Below, in pieces: positions 6,193 to 17,650 of a stretch of 64,000 nucleotides of DNA (within the stretch, counting starts at the first letter, position 1; each line of letters begins with the position of its first letter). The DNA is taken from positions 3,154,001 through 3,218,000 of the forward strand of contig NZ_JAHBRX010000001.1 of assembly GCF_018398335.1 (NCBI RefSeq), given 5' to 3'. The DNA comes from Chelatococcus sp. HY11. GTDB taxonomy: Bacteria; Pseudomonadota; Alphaproteobacteria; Rhizobiales; Beijerinckiaceae. The position numbers and the translations under genes are program-made. The notes below the pieces were generated by a model, which worked only from the letters and a program-made list of their open reading frames with translations, had not been told where the DNA came from and did not search any database.

Positions 6193-7620
6193 GTGTTCAT
6201 CAACACTGAGGCAGACTTGGATCAATCTCTACTCAGGAATCGCACCTTCGACGACCTCACGATCGGCGAGAGTGCTTCCCTCGTGCGCGTCGTTGGCCGC
6301 GACGACATCGATCTTTTCGCCACCGTGTCCGGCGATGTAAATCCCGCTCATCTCGATCCCGTCTTCGCGTCGACCGATATTTTCGGACATATCGTCGCTC
6401 ATGGGATGTGGACCGGCGCGCTGGTCTCGGCCGTGCTCGGCACGAAGCTGCCGGGCCCGGGCACGATCTATCTCGAGCAGGATCTACGCTTCCGCAAACC
6501 GGTCTCCCCCGGAGATACGATCACTGTCACCGTCATCGTCCGGGAGAAGTGGCCGGAGCAGCGCATCGTCGTACTCGACACGCGCTGCGCGAACCAGCGC
6601 GGCGAGGAGGTATTGAACGGCTCGGCGACCGTGATAGCTCCGGACCGCACCGTCGAATGGCCGCGCGCGAAGCTCCCCGACGTTGCACTGGTACGGCGTC
6701 ACCGATACGAGCATTTCGTCAACGAGGCTCGCGCCCTGCCAGTGCTCAAGGCAGCGATCGTCCATCCTTGCTCGCCTGATGCCATACTTGCCGCGGTGGA
6801 GCTCCGTAACGAGGGTTTGCTCGAGCCGCTTCTCGTCGGGCCCGAGGCCAAAATCAGGGCTGCGGCTGAGGAGGCCGGCGTCTCGCTTGATGGTATCCCG
6901 ATCGAAGCCGTCGAGCACAGCCACGCGGCTGCTGCCCGCGCCGTCGAGCTTGCCGCCGGCGGTCGCGTCGCCACGCTCATGAAGGGTAGTCTGCATACCG
7001 ACGAACTGCTCGGAGCGGTTATCGCCGAGAATTCCGGACTGCGGACAGATCGTCGCGTCAGCCATGTCTATGCGATGAGCGTGCCCGCCTACTCGAAGCC
7101 GCTTGTCGTTACCGATGCGGCGATCAACATTCAGCCGACTCTCGATCACAAGCGCGACATCTGCCAGAATGCAGTCGACCTTCTGCACACGCTCGGCGTC
7201 GTCGAACCGCTCGTTGCCGTCCTTACTGCCGTCGAGACCGTCAACTCCCGCATGCCATCGACGCTCGACGCCGCCGCGCTGACTGTCATGGCGGCTCGCG
7301 GCCAGATCACGGGCGCACGCGTCGATGGGCCGCTCGCCTTCGACAACGCCATCAACTCCGACGCAGCGCGCACCAAGGGTATAATCTCGCCGGTCGCCGG
7401 TCAGGCAGATATTCTGCTCGTACCGGATCTCGAGGCCGGAAACATGCTGGCGAAGCAACTGATCTATTTCGGCGGCGCGGACGCAGCCGGGCTCGTGCTC
7501 GGCGCCCGCGTGCCGATCATCCTGACGAGCCGAGCCGATTCCTTGCGCACCCGCATCGCCTCCGCTGCCCTTGCCAAGCTCGTCGCATTTCGCCGGTCTC
7601 AGGAAGTAAAACCCGCATGA
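6193..7620 (+). CDS. bifunctional MaoC-type enoyl-CoA hydratase / phosphate acyltransferase
   Basis: This is a 475-residue fusion. Residues about 15-150 form a MaoC hot-dog domain (SGDVNPAHLDPVFA, then FGHIVAHGMWTGALVSAVLGT, split here by domain context). Residues about 170-470 form a phosphate acetyl/butyryltransferase domain (MKGSLHTDELLGAV, DAAINIQPTLDHK, GPLAFDNAIN, VPDLEAGNMLAKQL). The Pta half converts acyl-CoA and phosphate to acyl-phosphate, while the MaoC half could hydrate crotonyl-CoA to (R)-3-hydroxybutyryl-CoA. The start is a GTG. The stop overlaps the acetate kinase ATG by four bases, which indicates translational coupling. The fusion followed by ackA and fabI is known from rhizobia, where a pta-ackA operon of Sinorhizobium was reported to be phosphate-stress controlled. 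Confidence 0.9.
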   Translation: MFINTEADLDQSLLRNRTFDDLTIGESASLVRVVGRDDIDLFATVSGDVNPAHLDPVFASTDIFGHIVAHGMWTGALVSAVLGTKLPGPGTIYLEQDLRFRKPVSPGDTITVTVIVREKWPEQRIVVLDTRCANQRGEEVLNGSATVIAPDRTVEWPRAKLPDVALVRRHRYEHFVNEARALPVLKAAIVHPCSPDAILAAVELRNEGLLEPLLVGPEAKIRAAAEEAGVSLDGIPIEAVEHSHAAAARAVELAAGGRVATLMKGSLHTDELLGAVIAENSGLRTDRRVSHVYAMSVPAYSKPLVVTDAAINIQPTLDHKRDICQNAVDLLHTLGVVEPLVAVLTAVETVNSRMPSTLDAAALTVMAARGQITGARVDGPLAFDNAINSDAARTKGIISPVAGQADILLVPDLEAGNMLAKQLIYFGGADAAGLVLGARVPIILTSRADSLRTRIASAALAKLVAFRRSQEVKPA

Positions 7621-10327: not shown

Positions 10328-11557
10328 TCAGCTTTGCTCGGCTCGCATGCACTCGCGATGTCGGGCTAACCGTCGACGATGGCCATCTGTTAGCGGAATG
10401 GGGGAATGCCAGCGCAGTTCGGCACGCGCTTGCTCGCTGAGGCTGGCCGAGAACTCGGGCCTGCCCTGGTCGTCAAATGTGACGAGCGCACGGTCGAAGG
10501 CAGCATCCCACAGCGCCGCTCGGCGTCGCTTTCGCACGCGCTCCACGGCACGATGTGCGAGGCTCGCAGCAGCGCCGGGTCGGAGATCCCCGTCAGGCCC
10601 CGCATACGGCCCACCTTTCGTCTTCGGCAACAGAAACGCCGACACGTTGAGATCGCATGCCGTTTCAAGTTGCCATGCGACTGCACCTTGCTTGGTCAGC
10701 GCACGTAGTCTTGCAGACTTGGCTTCAATCTCGTCGACGGTATTTTCCGGCATAGCGCGAAGCGCCTCGAAATCGCGCGTGACGTCTCTTGCACGGCTGA
10801 AACCGGAGCCTTCGGCGATACGATCTTTTTCTGCTTTCTCCAGGTTGTTCTTTCGGGCGTAGTATCTTGCTACCTCTTTGTTGTCGCCGGCGAGCTCCTT
10901 GAACGCAGCATCCGGAATACCCTGCTCCAGCACCTTTAAATCGAACACGCCAAAAAGAGAGTCGCCGCAACGGATCTGCGCATCGAAGAAGCCAAGCAGA
11001 AGGCCAGGGTCCACCGTCTCGATCCAGAGAGCGACCTTGGTGAGTTCAACCGCCATCGGGTTGCGATCGACACCATAGATGCAGCAGCGGGTGACATCAC
11101 GCAGCGCATGTCGGAAATCTGCAAGCGAGGGTGTGCCCTCCGCTCGAATGCGGGCAAGACGAGTAGCGATTCGGCGGGCAGCGGCTAGCAGGAAGTGGCC
11201 CGATCCGCAGGCGGGGTCGATGACGCTGAGCTTCAACAAGGCTTGGGCTGGGTCGGCGGCTTCCGCCTCTGTCTTGTCGCGAATAGGATCGAGCGCTGTG
11301 TCGAGGAGTGCCTGCACGAGGCTGTCCGGCGTGTAGTAGGAGCCGGTGGTTTTGCGCTGGTTACCCTTCTGCTCAGTGGCTTCCGAGGCGAAGGTGAGCG
11401 TCTTGCCGTCGTCGCCAAGCTGCGGCTGGAGTTCGAGCAGAGATTCATAGACCGAACCCAGCTCCTCGGTTTCCATCGCGCGCCAGTTCACCGGCACCAT
11501 GCCGGTTTTTTCGGATATCCGACCAGATTCTGCCGGGAATGCGGACATGAGGTCCAC
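10328..11557 (-). pseudogene. fragment of a large Eco57I-type N6-adenine DNA methylase
   Basis: The frame contains the methylase core: TTGSYYTPDSLVQALLD, the SAM motif VIDPACGSGHFLLAAARRIA, the GVDRNPMAVELTKVALWIE helix and the RCGDSLFGV segment. The catalytic NPPY motif and the target-recognition part are not present. The N-terminal 25 residues before VNWRAMETEELGSVYESLLE look like unrelated junction sequence. The C-terminus drifts out of the family after RWHSPIP. Full-length relatives, for example BREX PglX-like or DISARM DrmMI-like enzymes, exceed 1000 residues. This is therefore an internal fragment and catalytically dead. Confidence 0.75.
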
Positions 11558-12052: not shown

Positions 12053-12139
12053 TGGTGCGGGCGGTCGGACTCGAACCGACATATCCGTGAAGATGGTGGA
12101 TTTTGAATCCACTGCGTCTACCAATTCCGCCACGCCCGC
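12053..12139 (-). tRNA. tRNA-Leu(CAA)
   Basis: On the minus strand a full class II tRNA can be folded. The acceptor stem pairs GCGGGCG (5') with CGCCCGC (3'), followed by A and an encoded CCA. The D-loop has TTGGTAGACGC, the anticodon arm is GTGGA-TTCAAAA-TCCAC with anticodon CAA, a variable arm follows, and the T-arm is GGTTCGAGTCC. It lies at the right edge of the accessory mosaic, about 155 bases from a second, partial tRNA-Leu. Confidence 0.95.
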
Positions 12140-12492: not shown

Positions 12493-13623
12493 TCAATCCC
12501 AGCTCAGAGCGCCGCCGCTCTGGTATTCGATAACCCGGGTCTCGAAGAAGTTCTTCTCCTTCTTGAGGTCCATAGCCTCCGACATCCAGGGGAAGGGGTT
12601 GTCCGTCTCGGCGAACACCGGCGAAAGGCCGAGCTGGGCGCAGCGCCGGTTGGCGATGAAATGCATGTACTGTTCGCAGAGTGCGGCGTTCAGGCCGAGG
12701 AAGCCCCGCGGCATGGTGTCCCGGCCGTAGGACGCCTCGAGTTCAGCAGCCTCGCGCAGCATCCCGCGCACTTCGTCCTGGAAGGCCGACGTCCAGAGAT
12801 GCGGGTTCTCGTGCTTGATCTGGTTGATGACGTCAATGCCGAAATTGAGGTGAATACTCTCATCCCTGAGGATGTACTGGTACTGCTCGGCGATGCCGAC
12901 CATCTTGTTGCGCCGACCCAGCGACAGAATCTGTGCGAAGCCCGTGTAGAACCACATGCCCTCGAACACGACATAAAAGGCCACGAGATCGCGCAGGAAC
13001 GCCTGGTCCGCCGCAGGCGTGCCGGTCTTGAAGTCGGGATCATCGAGATGCTGCGTGTGCTTCAGCGCCCAGGCGGCCTTGTCGGTGATCGACGGCACCT
13101 CGCGATACATGTTGAACAATTCGCCCTCGTCCAGGCCGAGGCTCTCCACGATATACTGGAAGGTATGCGTGTGGACCGCCTCCTCGAAGGCCTGGCGCAG
13201 CAGATACTGCCGGCATTCCGGGTTGGTGAGATGCCGATAGATGGCCAGCACGATGTTGTTGGCCACAAGGCTTTCGGACGCCGCGAAGAAGCCGAGATTG
13301 CGCTTGATCGCCCGGCGTTCGTCGTCCGTCAGGCCTTCGCGTGATTTCCACAAGGCGATATCGGCCTGCATGGAAACCTCGGTCGGCATCCAGTGGTTGT
13401 TGCAACCCGCGAGATACTTCTCCCAGGCCCATTTATACTTGAGCGGCAGCAGCTGGTTCACGTCGGCGCGGCAGTTGATCATCGCCTTGTCGTCGACGGT
13501 GACGCGCCCGCCTCCGCGATCGATGGCGCCGAGGCCGGTGGCGTCGCCAGCGGGCTGCTGGCCGGACGGCAAGGGCTGGAATGGGAGCGCGGCTGTGGCC
13601 TTCGGCTCTGACCAATCGAGCAT
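12493..13623 (-). CDS. nrdB: class I ribonucleotide reductase beta subunit
   Basis: NrdB carries the dinuclear metal cofactor and radical that drive deoxyribonucleotide synthesis in NrdA. The protein has 376 residues from MLDWSEPKA. Metal-ligand segments are visible: an Asp/Glu-rich first helix (SMQADIALW), [10 protein letters not shown] (Glu and His ligands), [11 protein letters not shown], and [10 protein letters not shown] (Glu and His). The start at 13623 is preferred over 13650 because GGAG lies nine bases upstream. It follows nrdA on the same strand with a structured repeat in the 156-bp gap. The pair is the only RNR in the window and is B12-independent in chemistry. Confidence 0.95.
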
Positions 13624-13686
13624 TCTTTTATTCTCCAAATGTCTTGTCATGTGGGGCTATGGCCCTCACTCACCCCCTCACCCCAA

Positions 13687-13779: not shown

Positions 13780-16743
13780 CTATTGGCAGGCTTCGCAGTC
13801 GGGGTCGTCGATCGCGCAGGCCTTGCCCCAGGCGGCGCCGAGTTCAGCCTCACCTGCCGCCACATCACTCGCTTTACGCGTCTCGGCGATGAGAATCGGC
13901 GATGCCGCGGGCGCAGCAGCCGGCACCACCGCGGAAACCGCGTTGAGCTTGCCGTCGGTGCCCTTCAGCGTCGATTTCTCGACATGGGTCGCGGAGCGCG
14001 AGCGCAGGTAGTAGGTCGTCTTCAGGCCGCGCTGCCACGCCAGGCGATAGAGCGTGTCGAGCTTACGCCCGGACGGATTGGCGATGTAGAGATTGAGCGA
14101 CTGCGACTGGTCGATCCATTTCTGCCGGCGCGCGGCCGCCTCGATCAGCCAGGCCGAATCGATTTCGAAAGCCGTCGCGTAGAGCGCCTTGAGATCGTCG
14201 GGCACCCGGTCGATCTGGCCGACACTGCCGTCGAAATATTTGAGATCCGACACCATCACCTCGTCCCACAGGCCGCGCGCCTTGAGGTCGCGCACCAGCG
14301 CGGCGTTCACCACGGTGAAATCGCCCGACATGTTCGATTTCACGAAGAGGTTCTGGTAGGCGGGCTCGATCGACTGGCTGACCCCGCAGATATTGGAGAT
14401 CGTCGCGGTGGGCGCGATCGCCATCGTGTTGGAATTGCGCATGCCGGTCGTGACCACCCGCTGGCGCAACGTCTCCCAATCGAGCTTCGACGAGCGGTCG
14501 AAAACCCCGTCACGCGTTGCAGTGCCGCGCGCCTCGGCCAGGAGGCCGACGGAATCGATCGGCAGGATGCCGCGTGACCATAGCGACCCTTCGAAGGATG
14601 AATAGCGGCCGCGCTCGACTGCCAGATCGACCGAGGAAGCGATGGCGTGGAACGAGATGGCTTCCATGCTCGCATCCGCGAAGGAAACGGCCGCGTCCGA
14701 GCCATAGGGAATGCGCAGGGTCTGCAGGGCGTCCTGGAAGCCCATCAGGCCAAGGCCAATCGGCCGATGACGCAGGTTCGACCGGCGCGCCTCGGGGATC
14801 GTGTAGAAGTTGATGTCGATGACATTGTCGAGGATGCGCATCGCGGTTTTGACCGTGCGCACCAATTTCTCCATATCGAGGCCGTCAGCCGTGACATGGG
14901 CCGCGAGATTGACTGAGCCGAGATTGCAGACTGCCACCTCGTCATGGGAGGTGTTCAGCGTGATCTCGGTGCAGAGGTTCGAGGAATGCACAACGCCCGC
15001 GTGCCCCTGGGGCGAGCGGATGTTGCAGGGATCCTTGAAGGTGAGCCAGGGGTGGCCGGTCTCGAACAACATGGTCAGCATGCGCCGCCAGAGGTCGAGC
15101 GCCCTCACCTGCTTGAACACCTTCATCTCACCGCGCGCGGCCTTTGCCTCATAGGCCTCGTAGGCATCACGGAAAGCCGGCCCGTAGCGATCATGCAGGT
15201 CCGGTACCTCGTCCGGCGAAAACAGTGTCCACGGGCCGTCCGCCTCGACGCGCTGCATGAACAGGTCCGGCACCCAGTTGGCGGTGTTCATGTCGTGGGT
15301 GCGGCGGCGATCGTCGCCGGTGTTCTTCCGGAGATCGAGGAATTCCTCGATGTCCACATGCCATGTCTCGAGGTAGCCGCAGACGGCGCCCTTCCTCTTG
15401 CCGCCCTGATTGACGGCGATCGCCGTATCATTGGCCACCTTGAGGAAGGGCACGACGCCCTGGCTTTCGCCGTTGGTGCCCTTGATATGGGCGCCGAGGC
15501 CACGCACCGGCGTCCAGTCATTGCCGAGCCCGCCGGAATATTTGGCGAGCAGGGCATTGTCCTTGATCGCCTTGAAGATGCCGTCGAGGTCGTCCGACAC
15601 CGTGGTCAGGAAGCAGGAGGCAAGCTGCGAGCGGCGCGTGCCGGCGTTGAACAGCGTCGGCGTCGAGCACATGAAATGGAAGGACGAGAGGAGATCGTAA
15701 AATTCGATCGCCTTCGCCTCGCGGTCGACCTCACGCAGCGCCACACCCATGGCGACGCGCATGAAGAAAGCCTGCGCCAGCTCGAACCGCGTGCCGCGCA
15801 CATGCAGGAAATAGCGGTCGTAGAGCGTCTGGAAGCCGAGATAGTCGAAGTTCAGATCGCGCTCGGGCTTCAGCGCGGCGGCGAGGCGGGCCAGATCGAA
15901 GCGGGCGAGCTCAGGGTCGAGAAGCTCATTGTCGATGCCAGTCTTCACGTAAGCGTGGAAATAGCTCGGGTAGCGCTCGGCCATCTCGGCCTGCGTCGCC
16001 TCCTCCGCGCGGCCGAAGACGAAGCTCAAGGCCTCGCGCCGCAGCTTGTCGTTCAAGAGCCGCGCGGAAACCTTGGCATAGTCCGGCTCGGTCTCGACAA
16101 GGGTGCGGGCCGCGAGGATCGGCGCGAGCGCCAGTTCGTCCCGGCTGATGCCGTCGTAGAGGTTGCGGCGCGCCTCCGTGAGGATCGCCTCAGCGGTCAC
16201 GCCTTCGAGACCGGCGCAGGCTTCCGCGATGATGGCGGCAAGGCGCGCCTCGTCGAGCGGCACAAGTTCGCCGTCAGCGCCCTTCATGCGAAGGTGTGGC
16301 TGCTCCGGCGTCGTCGTCGCGTCATTGGCGGCGCGGGCGCGCTCGCGGGCACGCTCCTCGCGATAGAGCACATAGGCGCGCGCGGCCTTGTGATGCTCGC
16401 TGCGCATGAGGGCGAGCTCGACCTGGTCCTGCACATCCTCGATGTGGAAGGTACGCCCGGCATCGGCGCGACGGGTCAGCGCGGCGACAATCTGGCCGGT
16501 GAGATCAGCGACGATGTCGTGCACGCGGCGCGAGGCGGCGGCGCTCGATCCTTCGACGGCGAGGAACGCCTTCGTCAGCGCAACGGCGATCTTCGACGGG
16601 TCGAACGGCGTCACAGCGCCGTTGCGGCGGATGAGCTGGTATCCCGGCTCAGCGGCCGCGCGGGGGGCGCCCGTCACACCAGCGGGCGAGCGTGACAGCC
16701 TGGCTTCGGTTTCGCGGGCTTCGGTTTCGGTCATCAAGGACAT
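13780..16743 (-). CDS. nrdA: class I ribonucleotide reductase alpha subunit
   Basis: NrdA reduces ribonucleotides to deoxyribonucleotides with NrdB. The protein has 987 residues from MSLMTETEA. It has an N-terminal ATP-cone (QLIRRNGAVTPFDPSKIAVA) and a second cone-like stretch (LRMKGADGELVPLDEARL). The 10-stranded barrel contains NAGTRRSQLASCF, the catalytic SSNLCTEI loop and MRNSNTMAIAPTATIS. The C-terminus ends in DPDCEACQ, the redox-active Cys pair. The open frame extends a further 67 codons upstream, but that DNA is a cobalamin riboswitch and its leader, so the start is set at 16743 (or 16734). Expression should fall when B12 is plentiful. Confidence 0.95.
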   Translation of the reverse strand: MSLMTETEARETEARLSRSPAGVTGAPRAAAEPGYQLIRRNGAVTPFDPSKIAVALTKAFLAVEGSSAAASRRVHDIVADLTGQIVAALTRRADAGRTFHIEDVQDQVELALMRSEHHKAARAYVLYREERARERARAANDATTTPEQPHLRMKGADGELVPLDEARLAAIIAEACAGLEGVTAEAILTEARRNLYDGISRDELALAPILAARTLVETEPDYAKVSARLLNDKLRREALSFVFGRAEEATQAEMAERYPSYFHAYVKTGIDNELLDPELARFDLARLAAALKPERDLNFDYLGFQTLYDRYFLHVRGTRFELAQAFFMRVAMGVALREVDREAKAIEFYDLLSSFHFMCSTPTLFNAGTRRSQLASCFLTTVSDDLDGIFKAIKDNALLAKYSGGLGNDWTPVRGLGAHIKGTNGESQGVVPFLKVANDTAIAVNQGGKRKGAVCGYLETWHVDIEEFLDLRKNTGDDRRRTHDMNTANWVPDLFMQRVEADGPWTLFSPDEVPDLHDRYGPAFRDAYEAYEAKAARGEMKVFKQVRALDLWRRMLTMLFETGHPWLTFKDPCNIRSPQGHAGVVHSSNLCTEITLNTSHDEVAVCNLGSVNLAAHVTADGLDMEKLVRTVKTAMRILDNVIDINFYTIPEARRSNLRHRPIGLGLMGFQDALQTLRIPYGSDAAVSFADASMEAISFHAIASSVDLAVERGRYSSFEGSLWSRGILPIDSVGLLAEARGTATRDGVFDRSSKLDWETLRQRVVTTGMRNSNTMAIAPTATISNICGVSQSIEPAYQNLFVKSNMSGDFTVVNAALVRDLKARGLWDEVMVSDLKYFDGSVGQIDRVPDDLKALYATAFEIDSAWLIEAAARRQKWIDQSQSLNLYIANPSGRKLDTLYRLAWQRGLKTTYYLRSRSATHVEKSTLKGTDGKLNAVSAVVPAAAPAASPILIAETRKASDVAAGEAELGAAWGKACAIDDPDCEACQ

Positions 16744-16861
16744 CGGCAACACACCCCATTCTTGGGGGCAAAGGCCGAGCGGACGCGCAAACAGGAGCGC
16801 CCGGCAGCCTTCCGCCGCGACAAACTCCAGGCGATCCACCGGGGCACCCCGCCCGAGGACA

Positions 16862-17035
16862 ATCTCAATCGTCGCGGCAGGTCTCCTGGCTGTGGATCGC
16901 CGCCCACGCCCTGCCTTCCCGGCGCCATGCGACGCCAGTGACATCAGTTGGACGTAGACTCACCACTTACAGTTGCGGGGGCAGCTTCGGTTTGGCGGTG
17001 CCAAAGCTCCGCGCCCGAATTCCCTCTTGCCCGCT
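16862..17035 (-). promoter_or_regulatory. cobalamin (B12) riboswitch in the nrdAB leader
   Basis: Read on the minus strand, all landmark boxes are present in order: AAGAGGGAA, then GCTGCCCCCGCAACTGTAAG, GTCACTGG, GGGAAGGC and AGCCAGGAGACCTGCC. Spacing is normal for the class. It ends about 120 bases before the nrdA start, which leaves room for an expression platform. In known systems such switches turn off B12-independent isoenzymes when adenosylcobalamin is available. Confidence 0.93.
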
Positions 17036-17059
17036 CGAATACGAATCGAGCGACCGTGA

Positions 17060-17096
17060 CCACTAGATATAGGGGGTAATTGCCCGCTTATGTCAA
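17060..17096 (-). promoter_or_regulatory. nrdAB promoter with an NrdR-like box over the -10
   Basis: On the minus strand TTGACA (17091-17096) and CTATAT (17067-17072) are separated by 18 bases, a good sigma-70 pair placed just upstream of the riboswitch. The -10 lies in CCCCTATATCTAGTGG (17060-17075), which matches 13 of 16 positions of the NrdR box as I recall it (ACACWATATCTWGWGT). I could not find a convincing second box at the usual spacing. Confidence 0.6.
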
Positions 17097-17137
17097 TATA
17101 TGCGATATCTCGGCGCGGCGTGGGATCACGGCCAGGG

Positions 17138-17650
17138 TTAATTTTTCCTCATTTTCCCCAGGCCGCCGAGCGCGAGCAGCGCAAGGCCGAGCGAGGCGAG
17201 CGCACTCCAGCCGGCGAGCGAAACACCCAGGAAACGCCAGGCGGCCTCGTCGCAGCGCACCACGCGGGTGGTCTGCAGGTTCTTGAGAAAATCATTGAGG
17301 CCGACATTGTTGTTCATGGGGCCGGTGCAATCCGCAGGCCCCTGCCACAAATGCCACTCCGCGCCGCTGTGGTAGACGCCGAGGCCGGCGTTGTAGAGGA
17401 ACGCGACCGCGATGATGCCGAAGCCTATCCAGCGCAGGCCCACGAACAGCCGGTCACGCCGCTCATCGGGCAGAAGCGCGAGCACCGCCGCTATCGGCAT
17501 CGCGAGATAGTAGGGCTGGCGCTGTTTGAGACAAAGCTCACAGGGCTTCAGCCCCAGCACGTACTCAAAATAATAGGCGCCGCCGATGAGGGCGACGCAA
17601 ATGACGAGGATCGTCAGTGCAACAAGGCGTGGGCGCGAGAGAAGGGACAT
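17138..17650 (-). CDS. dsbB: disulfide bond formation protein B family (DsbB-like)
   Basis: This 170-residue inner-membrane protein has four predicted TM helices. It carries the DsbB quinone-side cysteine pair in KPCELCLKQRQPYY and a second periplasmic pair in ADCTGP and VVRCDEAAWRF. It should reoxidise DsbA and pass electrons to quinones. The start is the ATG at 17650; the frame extends upstream without family sequence. A DedA/YqaA-like gene ends 40 bases upstream on the same strand, so the two may be co-transcribed. Length fits the compact alphaproteobacterial DsbB/DsbI type. Confidence 0.88.
   Translation of the reverse strand: MSLLSRPRLVALTILVICVALIGGAYYFEYVLGLKPCELCLKQRQPYYLAMPIAAVLALLPDERRDRLFVGLRWIGFGIIAVAFLYNAGLGVYHSGAEWHLWQGPADCTGPMNNNVGLNDFLKNLQTTRVVRCDEAAWRFLGVSLAGWSALASLGLALLALGGLGKMRKN

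Follow-up and report, generated by a model that had tools for sequence, protein, structure and literature searches.

The nrdAB genes of Chelatococcus sp. HY11, which encode a B12-independent ribonucleotide reductase, are very probably under two negative controls in series, one exerted by the repressor NrdR at the promoter and the other by a cobalamin riboswitch in the leader. The sequence elements, their conservation and the partner genes are observed; from them we infer NrdR binding, a response to the ligand, the direction of that response and a translational step. NrdR with ATP and dATP would bind a pair of boxes lying over the -35 and -10 elements, and the NrdR-bound pair would block nrdAB transcription when deoxynucleotides are plentiful. 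In the leader, adenosylcobalamin would stabilise the aptamer and a contact between its loops L5 and L13. Plentiful B12 would then lower nrdAB output and leave the supply of DNA precursors to the B12-dependent NrdJ, which has NrdR-type boxes in common with nrdAB, but is without a B12 switch. Control of a class I nrdAB by NrdR and B12 is what had originally been predicted here, and the features of the window (the whole stretch of 64,000 nucleotides that was analysed) support that interpretation (Table 1).

Table 1. Features of the nrdAB locus, in window coordinates
Feature	Position	Strand	Basis and remarks
nrdB, class I beta subunit	12493..13650	-	385 aa; NF005550, 678 bits; PF00268
nrdA, class Ia ribonucleotide reductase alpha subunit	13780..16743	-	987 aa; NF005544, 1698 bits
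Start-codon hairpin over likely Shine-Dalgarno G-run	16740..16780	-	Predicted fold, z -2.50 against shuffles; alignment
P13/L13-like element, G-rich, GGGCGGGGTGCCCC	16841..16854	-	Near-invariant in 27 aligned leaders
Cobalamin riboswitch aptamer (RF00174)	16859..17073	-	106.7 bits, complete model 1-189
NrdR-type box 2, CCCCTATATCTAGTGG	17060..17075	-	12/16 to assumed consensus; overlaps putative -10 and aptamer 5' end
Putative promoter, TTGACA-18 nt-CTATAT	17067..17096	-	Sequence; TTGACA at 17096-17091, CTATAT at 17072-17067
NrdR-type box 1, ATCGCATATATTGACA	17091..17106	-	10/16 to assumed consensus; overlaps TTGACA -35

On the minus strand the order is dsbB, box 1, box 2 together with the aptamer, the G-rich element, the start-codon hairpin, nrdA and nrdB. 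The dsbB gene (PF02600, minus strand) ends at 17138, ahead of the nrdAB control region. Past nrdB there follow a 95-aa ORF, a tRNA gene (12056-12139) and a DNA-methylase-like gene, the nearby ORF at 10328-11557 (-) resembling DNA adenine methylases (PF02384 and PF20473). The class I nrdAB expected downstream of the switch is there: profile matches for NrdA and NrdB follow it directly and place the enzyme in class Ia, NrdA having the domains PF02867, PF00317 and PF03477, with the ATP cone at its N-terminus. The original prediction had also warned that the open frame through the riboswitch could give NrdA a false N-terminus of 67 residues, and this annotation trap is real, as the open frame reaches back into the aptamer and the mechanical ORF, lengthened by that amount, begins at an ATG at 16944. 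In several relatives (e.g. L034, L121, L122 and L125) the homologous ATG is separated from the B12 box by in-frame stops, so that the ATG at 16743 is the likely start of nrdA.

A covariance search of the window with the cobalamin family, the check proposed with the prediction, gave a score far above the gathering score of 31.5 bits (E 1e-25), and that the aptamer match is more than chance is beyond doubt. The claim of a complete riboswitch on the minus strand upstream of nrdA is thereby borne out, and the motifs quoted for it are present. Complementarity between L5 and L13 is expected of cobalamin riboswitches, and in the window the GCGGGG of the L13-like element is complementary over 6 bp to the CCCCGC of L5; both loops have the canonical motif in 26 of the 28 leaders compared. 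After the B12 box there is, in addition, a near-invariant GGGCGGGGTG common to the 27 aligned leaders.

Most aligned leaders have CCCC...GGGG beside the ATG. The outer stem of this hairpin differs among clades yet still pairs (CGGC/GCCG in the window; GACAUC/GAUGUC, including the start codon, in the Bradyrhizobium leader L041), and six folded examples have z values between -1.55 and -2.69. Pairing of the G-run before the start codon in this conserved hairpin makes a translational output probable, and control of nrdAB at that step is the reading that we favour with moderate confidence. Action of the riboswitch at transcription, for example by Rho-dependent termination, is a serious if less likely reading. 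Transcription-level control is described for Streptomyces nrdABS (PMC4991794) and suggested for Cutibacterium acnes nrdAB (PMC3848588), and the hairpin of the window, being predicted closed in both modelled states, is unsuited to a purely translational switch; however, a scan found no terminator-like site in the leader, and the hairpin at the ATG is conserved in most aligned leaders.

The translational reading was also followed in models of the leader. When 16756-16875 is folded without the last arm of the hairpin, the G-rich element pairs with the upstream arm, at an unremarkable energy (z -0.97); the L13 fragment itself does not outdo shuffled sequence in folding (z 0.16). In the full-leader model of the window the G-run is closed (unpaired 0.00) with or without L13 blocked, and blocking L13 raises the accessibility of the AUG from 0.42 to 0.55, which argues against an opening model. 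Among the 28 leaders modelled, blocking L13 lowers G-run accessibility in eight (five from Bradyrhizobium, L037, L040 and L125), and none moves by more than 0.05 in the opposite direction. Control blocking of other segments changes G-run accessibility by -0.02 on average; the drop is larger in L043 and L044 (about -0.1) and in L040 (-0.26). Ligand-free opening by L13, with the expected drop in eight of 28 leaders and not in the window, was rejected as a result and is put forward as a hypothesis only.

The promoter had been described as TTGACA/CTATAT with its -10 in a single NrdR box matching 13 of 16 positions. Both hexamers are present at a spacing of 18 nt and the promoter is plausible, although a simple sigma-70 consensus scan of 16650-17200 listed none. 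A box does lie over the -10, but it matches 12 positions, not 13, of what we take to be the NrdR consensus (acaCwATATaTwGwgt), and it is not alone, a partner 31 bp away having been missed. The gap between the boxes is 15 bp and the pair scores 22 of 32 against this assumed consensus. No other pair in the 64-kb window scores at least 22 at a distance of 31 or 32 bp, where two others reach 21; six other spacing classes hold no pair at 22 and one at 21. In 200 dinucleotide-shuffled versions of the surrounding 160 nt, no pair scored as high. Pairs at 31 or 32 bp with p <=0.05 against exact shuffles occur in 24 of 28 alphaproteobacterial leaders, a figure obtained with the stretch widened to include box 2; an earlier run, with a shorter stretch and Markov controls, gave 17 of 28. 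This set is without L113, which is from the same genome as L033 (Labrys), and without L127, which has no switch. In leaders of the Bradyrhizobium type the best pair probably has one of its boxes inside the aptamer, which makes these pairs doubtful. TTGAC falls within box 1 in 18 of the 28 leaders, the window among them. The gap between NrdR boxes is reported as 15-16 bp in three of four bacteria (PMC12051234), which the gap in the window fits, and the boxes stand about three helix turns apart (PMC9110341).

A chance promoter match was judged unlikely from the rank of the pair in the window, the shuffles and the comparison of the 28 leaders. It is likewise very improbable that the boxes are ordinary A+T-rich promoter sequence rather than NrdR sites: the single boxes match just 10 and 12 of the 16 positions of a consensus that was itself assumed, but their spacing is the one in print, no pair in the window scores better, 24 of the 28 leaders have such pairs, and a similar one stands upstream of nrdJ.

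The genome (6.95 Mb in 6 contigs, 99.41% complete) contains the partners that the proposed logic calls for. A PF02867 search returned NrdA and one other protein, which is the class II NrdJ predicted to be encoded elsewhere (NF005736, 2292 bits; PF08471), and the search for nrdR found one NrdR (TIGR00244, 166 bits); PF13597 (NrdD) had no match in the genome. Three RF00174 matches occur, upstream of metE, of a cbtA/cobW/cobN cluster and of nrdA, and none of them is at nrdJ. The box pair of nrdJ, with a score of 22 and a distance of 32 bp, precedes the assumed nrdJ start by about 370 nt.

Among relatives the regulated nrdA is patchily distributed. In an order sample of 149 genomes (at least 95% complete, that of HY11 included) this NrdA is found in 16, in one piece at 75-100% identity in 14 and in pieces in two (G105 and G094), with two more matches at 38-39% identity left uncounted; in its own family it occurs in one of six genomes. 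In 15 of these 16 carriers nrdA is immediately preceded by the switch, the exception being G094, where the stretch upstream of the fragmented gene gave no switch match. PF08471 finds NrdJ in all 16 carriers, but in 146 of the 149 genomes overall, so that the presence of nrdJ proves little alone and its co-occurrence with nrdA was set aside as strong evidence. The same profile matched none of 14 control genomes and may therefore detect only some class II enzymes.

In a class sample of 388 genomes, ten have a long NrdA (at least 629 bits). The switch is present in seven of the eight in which NrdJ was inferred from match counts, and in neither of the two with a single match; these two genomes measure 1.2 and 1.4 Mb, and their NrdA is distant (44% and 54% identity, about 100 N-terminal residues). 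A named sample, with 40 genomes examined out of 80 fetched, has a switch at nrdA in 21. NrdJ accompanies it in 18 of these, three being without detectable NrdJ, as against 9 of the 19 genomes without a switch (Fisher p 0.017, the genomes being related to one another). In this tally 31 of 40 genomes were over the cut-off, and G026, G029, G030 and G031 were uncounted because the match was NrdA itself, as was a further match in G026, short and weak, that lies on a different contig. Adjacency of switch and nrdA was judged in the named and order samples from coordinates on the same contig. RF00174 gives several actinobacterial switches low scores, so that the label 'no switch' is weak for Amycolatopsis. 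Arboricoccus (L056/L165) combines nrdA and nrdJ with a strong box pair (10+14), but is without the switch.

In a midpoint-rooted NrdA tree of 41 rows, the 13 beta- and gammaproteobacterial rows are all without a switch, while the 28 alphaproteobacterial, acidobacterial and actinobacterial rows form the other side, 22 of them with one. The window falls on this side, which also holds the switch-bearing Streptomyces nrdA (L054). The switch label needs 4 changes on the tree vs 13.8 in shuffles; the regulated operon may have come down from a common ancestor or been passed on by transfer.

Several further loci came to light in the samples. The nrdA of a Bradyrhizobium MAG (L043, 3001-5874) contains one in-frame stop, which may be an assembly error. 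In an acidobacterial MAG (L045) a stretch about 1.2 kb past nrdA (7004-7276) has 35% identity to the ATP cone of NrdA and may encode another ATP-cone protein, perhaps nrdR; what looked like an insert in the nrdA of this MAG came from the joining of two matches. B12 switches occur in the class sample upstream of another class I large-subunit gene in L177 (1402-1595, -) and L175 (1612-1837, -), with open frames of 869 and 816 aa. Divergent, back-to-back B12 switches stand beside nrdA in L045 (2256-2458, -, and 2629-2816, +), and divergent switches are also found beside it in G004, G012, G039, G095 and G105.

One relative, L037 (Rhizobiales AFS012373), has no NrdJ by TIGR02504 or PF08471 and no NrdD. 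Its nrdA switch (102.7 bits) is altered at two positions in L13 and at four in the 19-nt L5 core, and one of these four changes also occurs in L034, the sister of L037 in the tree. The other three switches of L037 have canonical cores. L034 (support 100/100) has NrdJ and a switch of 136.7 bits. These observations fit a decay of the L037 switch after loss of nrdJ. Against such a reading, L036 and L043 are without detectable NrdJ yet have canonical loops (both are possibly incomplete MAGs, 1.9 and 3.8 Mb in size), and L123 (G182) carries NrdJ, yet the full L5 motif is missing. A parallel to the possible decay is found in Mycobacterium tuberculosis, where, according to PMC4428469 (citing Warner 2007), B12 selects metE riboswitch mutations in the absence of a full MetH. 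A broader proposal, tentative and on balance doubtful, is that in Hyphomicrobiales L13 pairs either with L5 (with B12) or with the upstream arm of the hairpin (without B12), thereby freeing the ribosome-binding site, and that genomes retain the switch only as long as they have nrdJ, the switch decaying once that gene is lost, as L037 may show. The switch of the window could itself be a relic or weak, with B12 no longer altering nrdAB output in this strain. Its 106.7 bits are the lowest among 15 order-sample nrdA switches, and only that of L037 scores lower among the named alphaproteobacteria, but L5, L13 and the B12 box are all canonical, and we regard this as highly unlikely.

B12 elements reportedly regulate B12-independent isozymes of ribonucleotide reductase (Rodionov, in 2003). 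Control of the metE type also acts on a B12-independent isozyme, and the Chelatococcus genome has a switch before metE as well, but there it concerns methionine synthesis rather than ribonucleotide reduction. Stacked control by NrdR and a B12 riboswitch is already known from the actinobacteria Cutibacterium acnes and Streptomyces. In C. (Propionibacterium) acnes an nrd-box covers the nrdAB promoter and a cobalamin riboswitch lies in the 5' UTR, with none at nrdRJ, and the same logic was proposed (PMC3848588). That account differs in giving nrdAB a single box, where Chelatococcus has two and a start-codon hairpin, and in that much transcription seems to stop before the first gene. Streptomyces likewise has a class Ia nrdAB with a B12 riboswitch, a class II nrdJ elsewhere (PMC4991794) and NrdR boxes, at nrdAB and nrdRJ (PMC9110341), but in S. 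coelicolor the operon includes nrdS and control by the nrdABS riboswitch is described as transcriptional (PMC4991794), whereas nrdB of Chelatococcus is followed by the 95-aa ORF. The dual control originally proposed thus stands as to its elements and partner genes, which are present, but the combination is not new in kind. Two of the three findings named in advance as refuting it, a missing covariance hit and a genome devoid of class II reductase, did not arise. Chelatococcus nrdAB is a well-supported new alphaproteobacterial case, in which the promoter has two boxes and the output is probably set at translation, and we do not claim it to be the first in print. Relatives like L037 may serve as a natural experiment on whether switches of this kind depend on the isoenzyme that uses B12. 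The Chelatococcus case extends the proposed control of ribonucleotide reductase by nucleotide plus cofactor from the actinobacteria to a patchy alphaproteobacterial nrdAB lineage.
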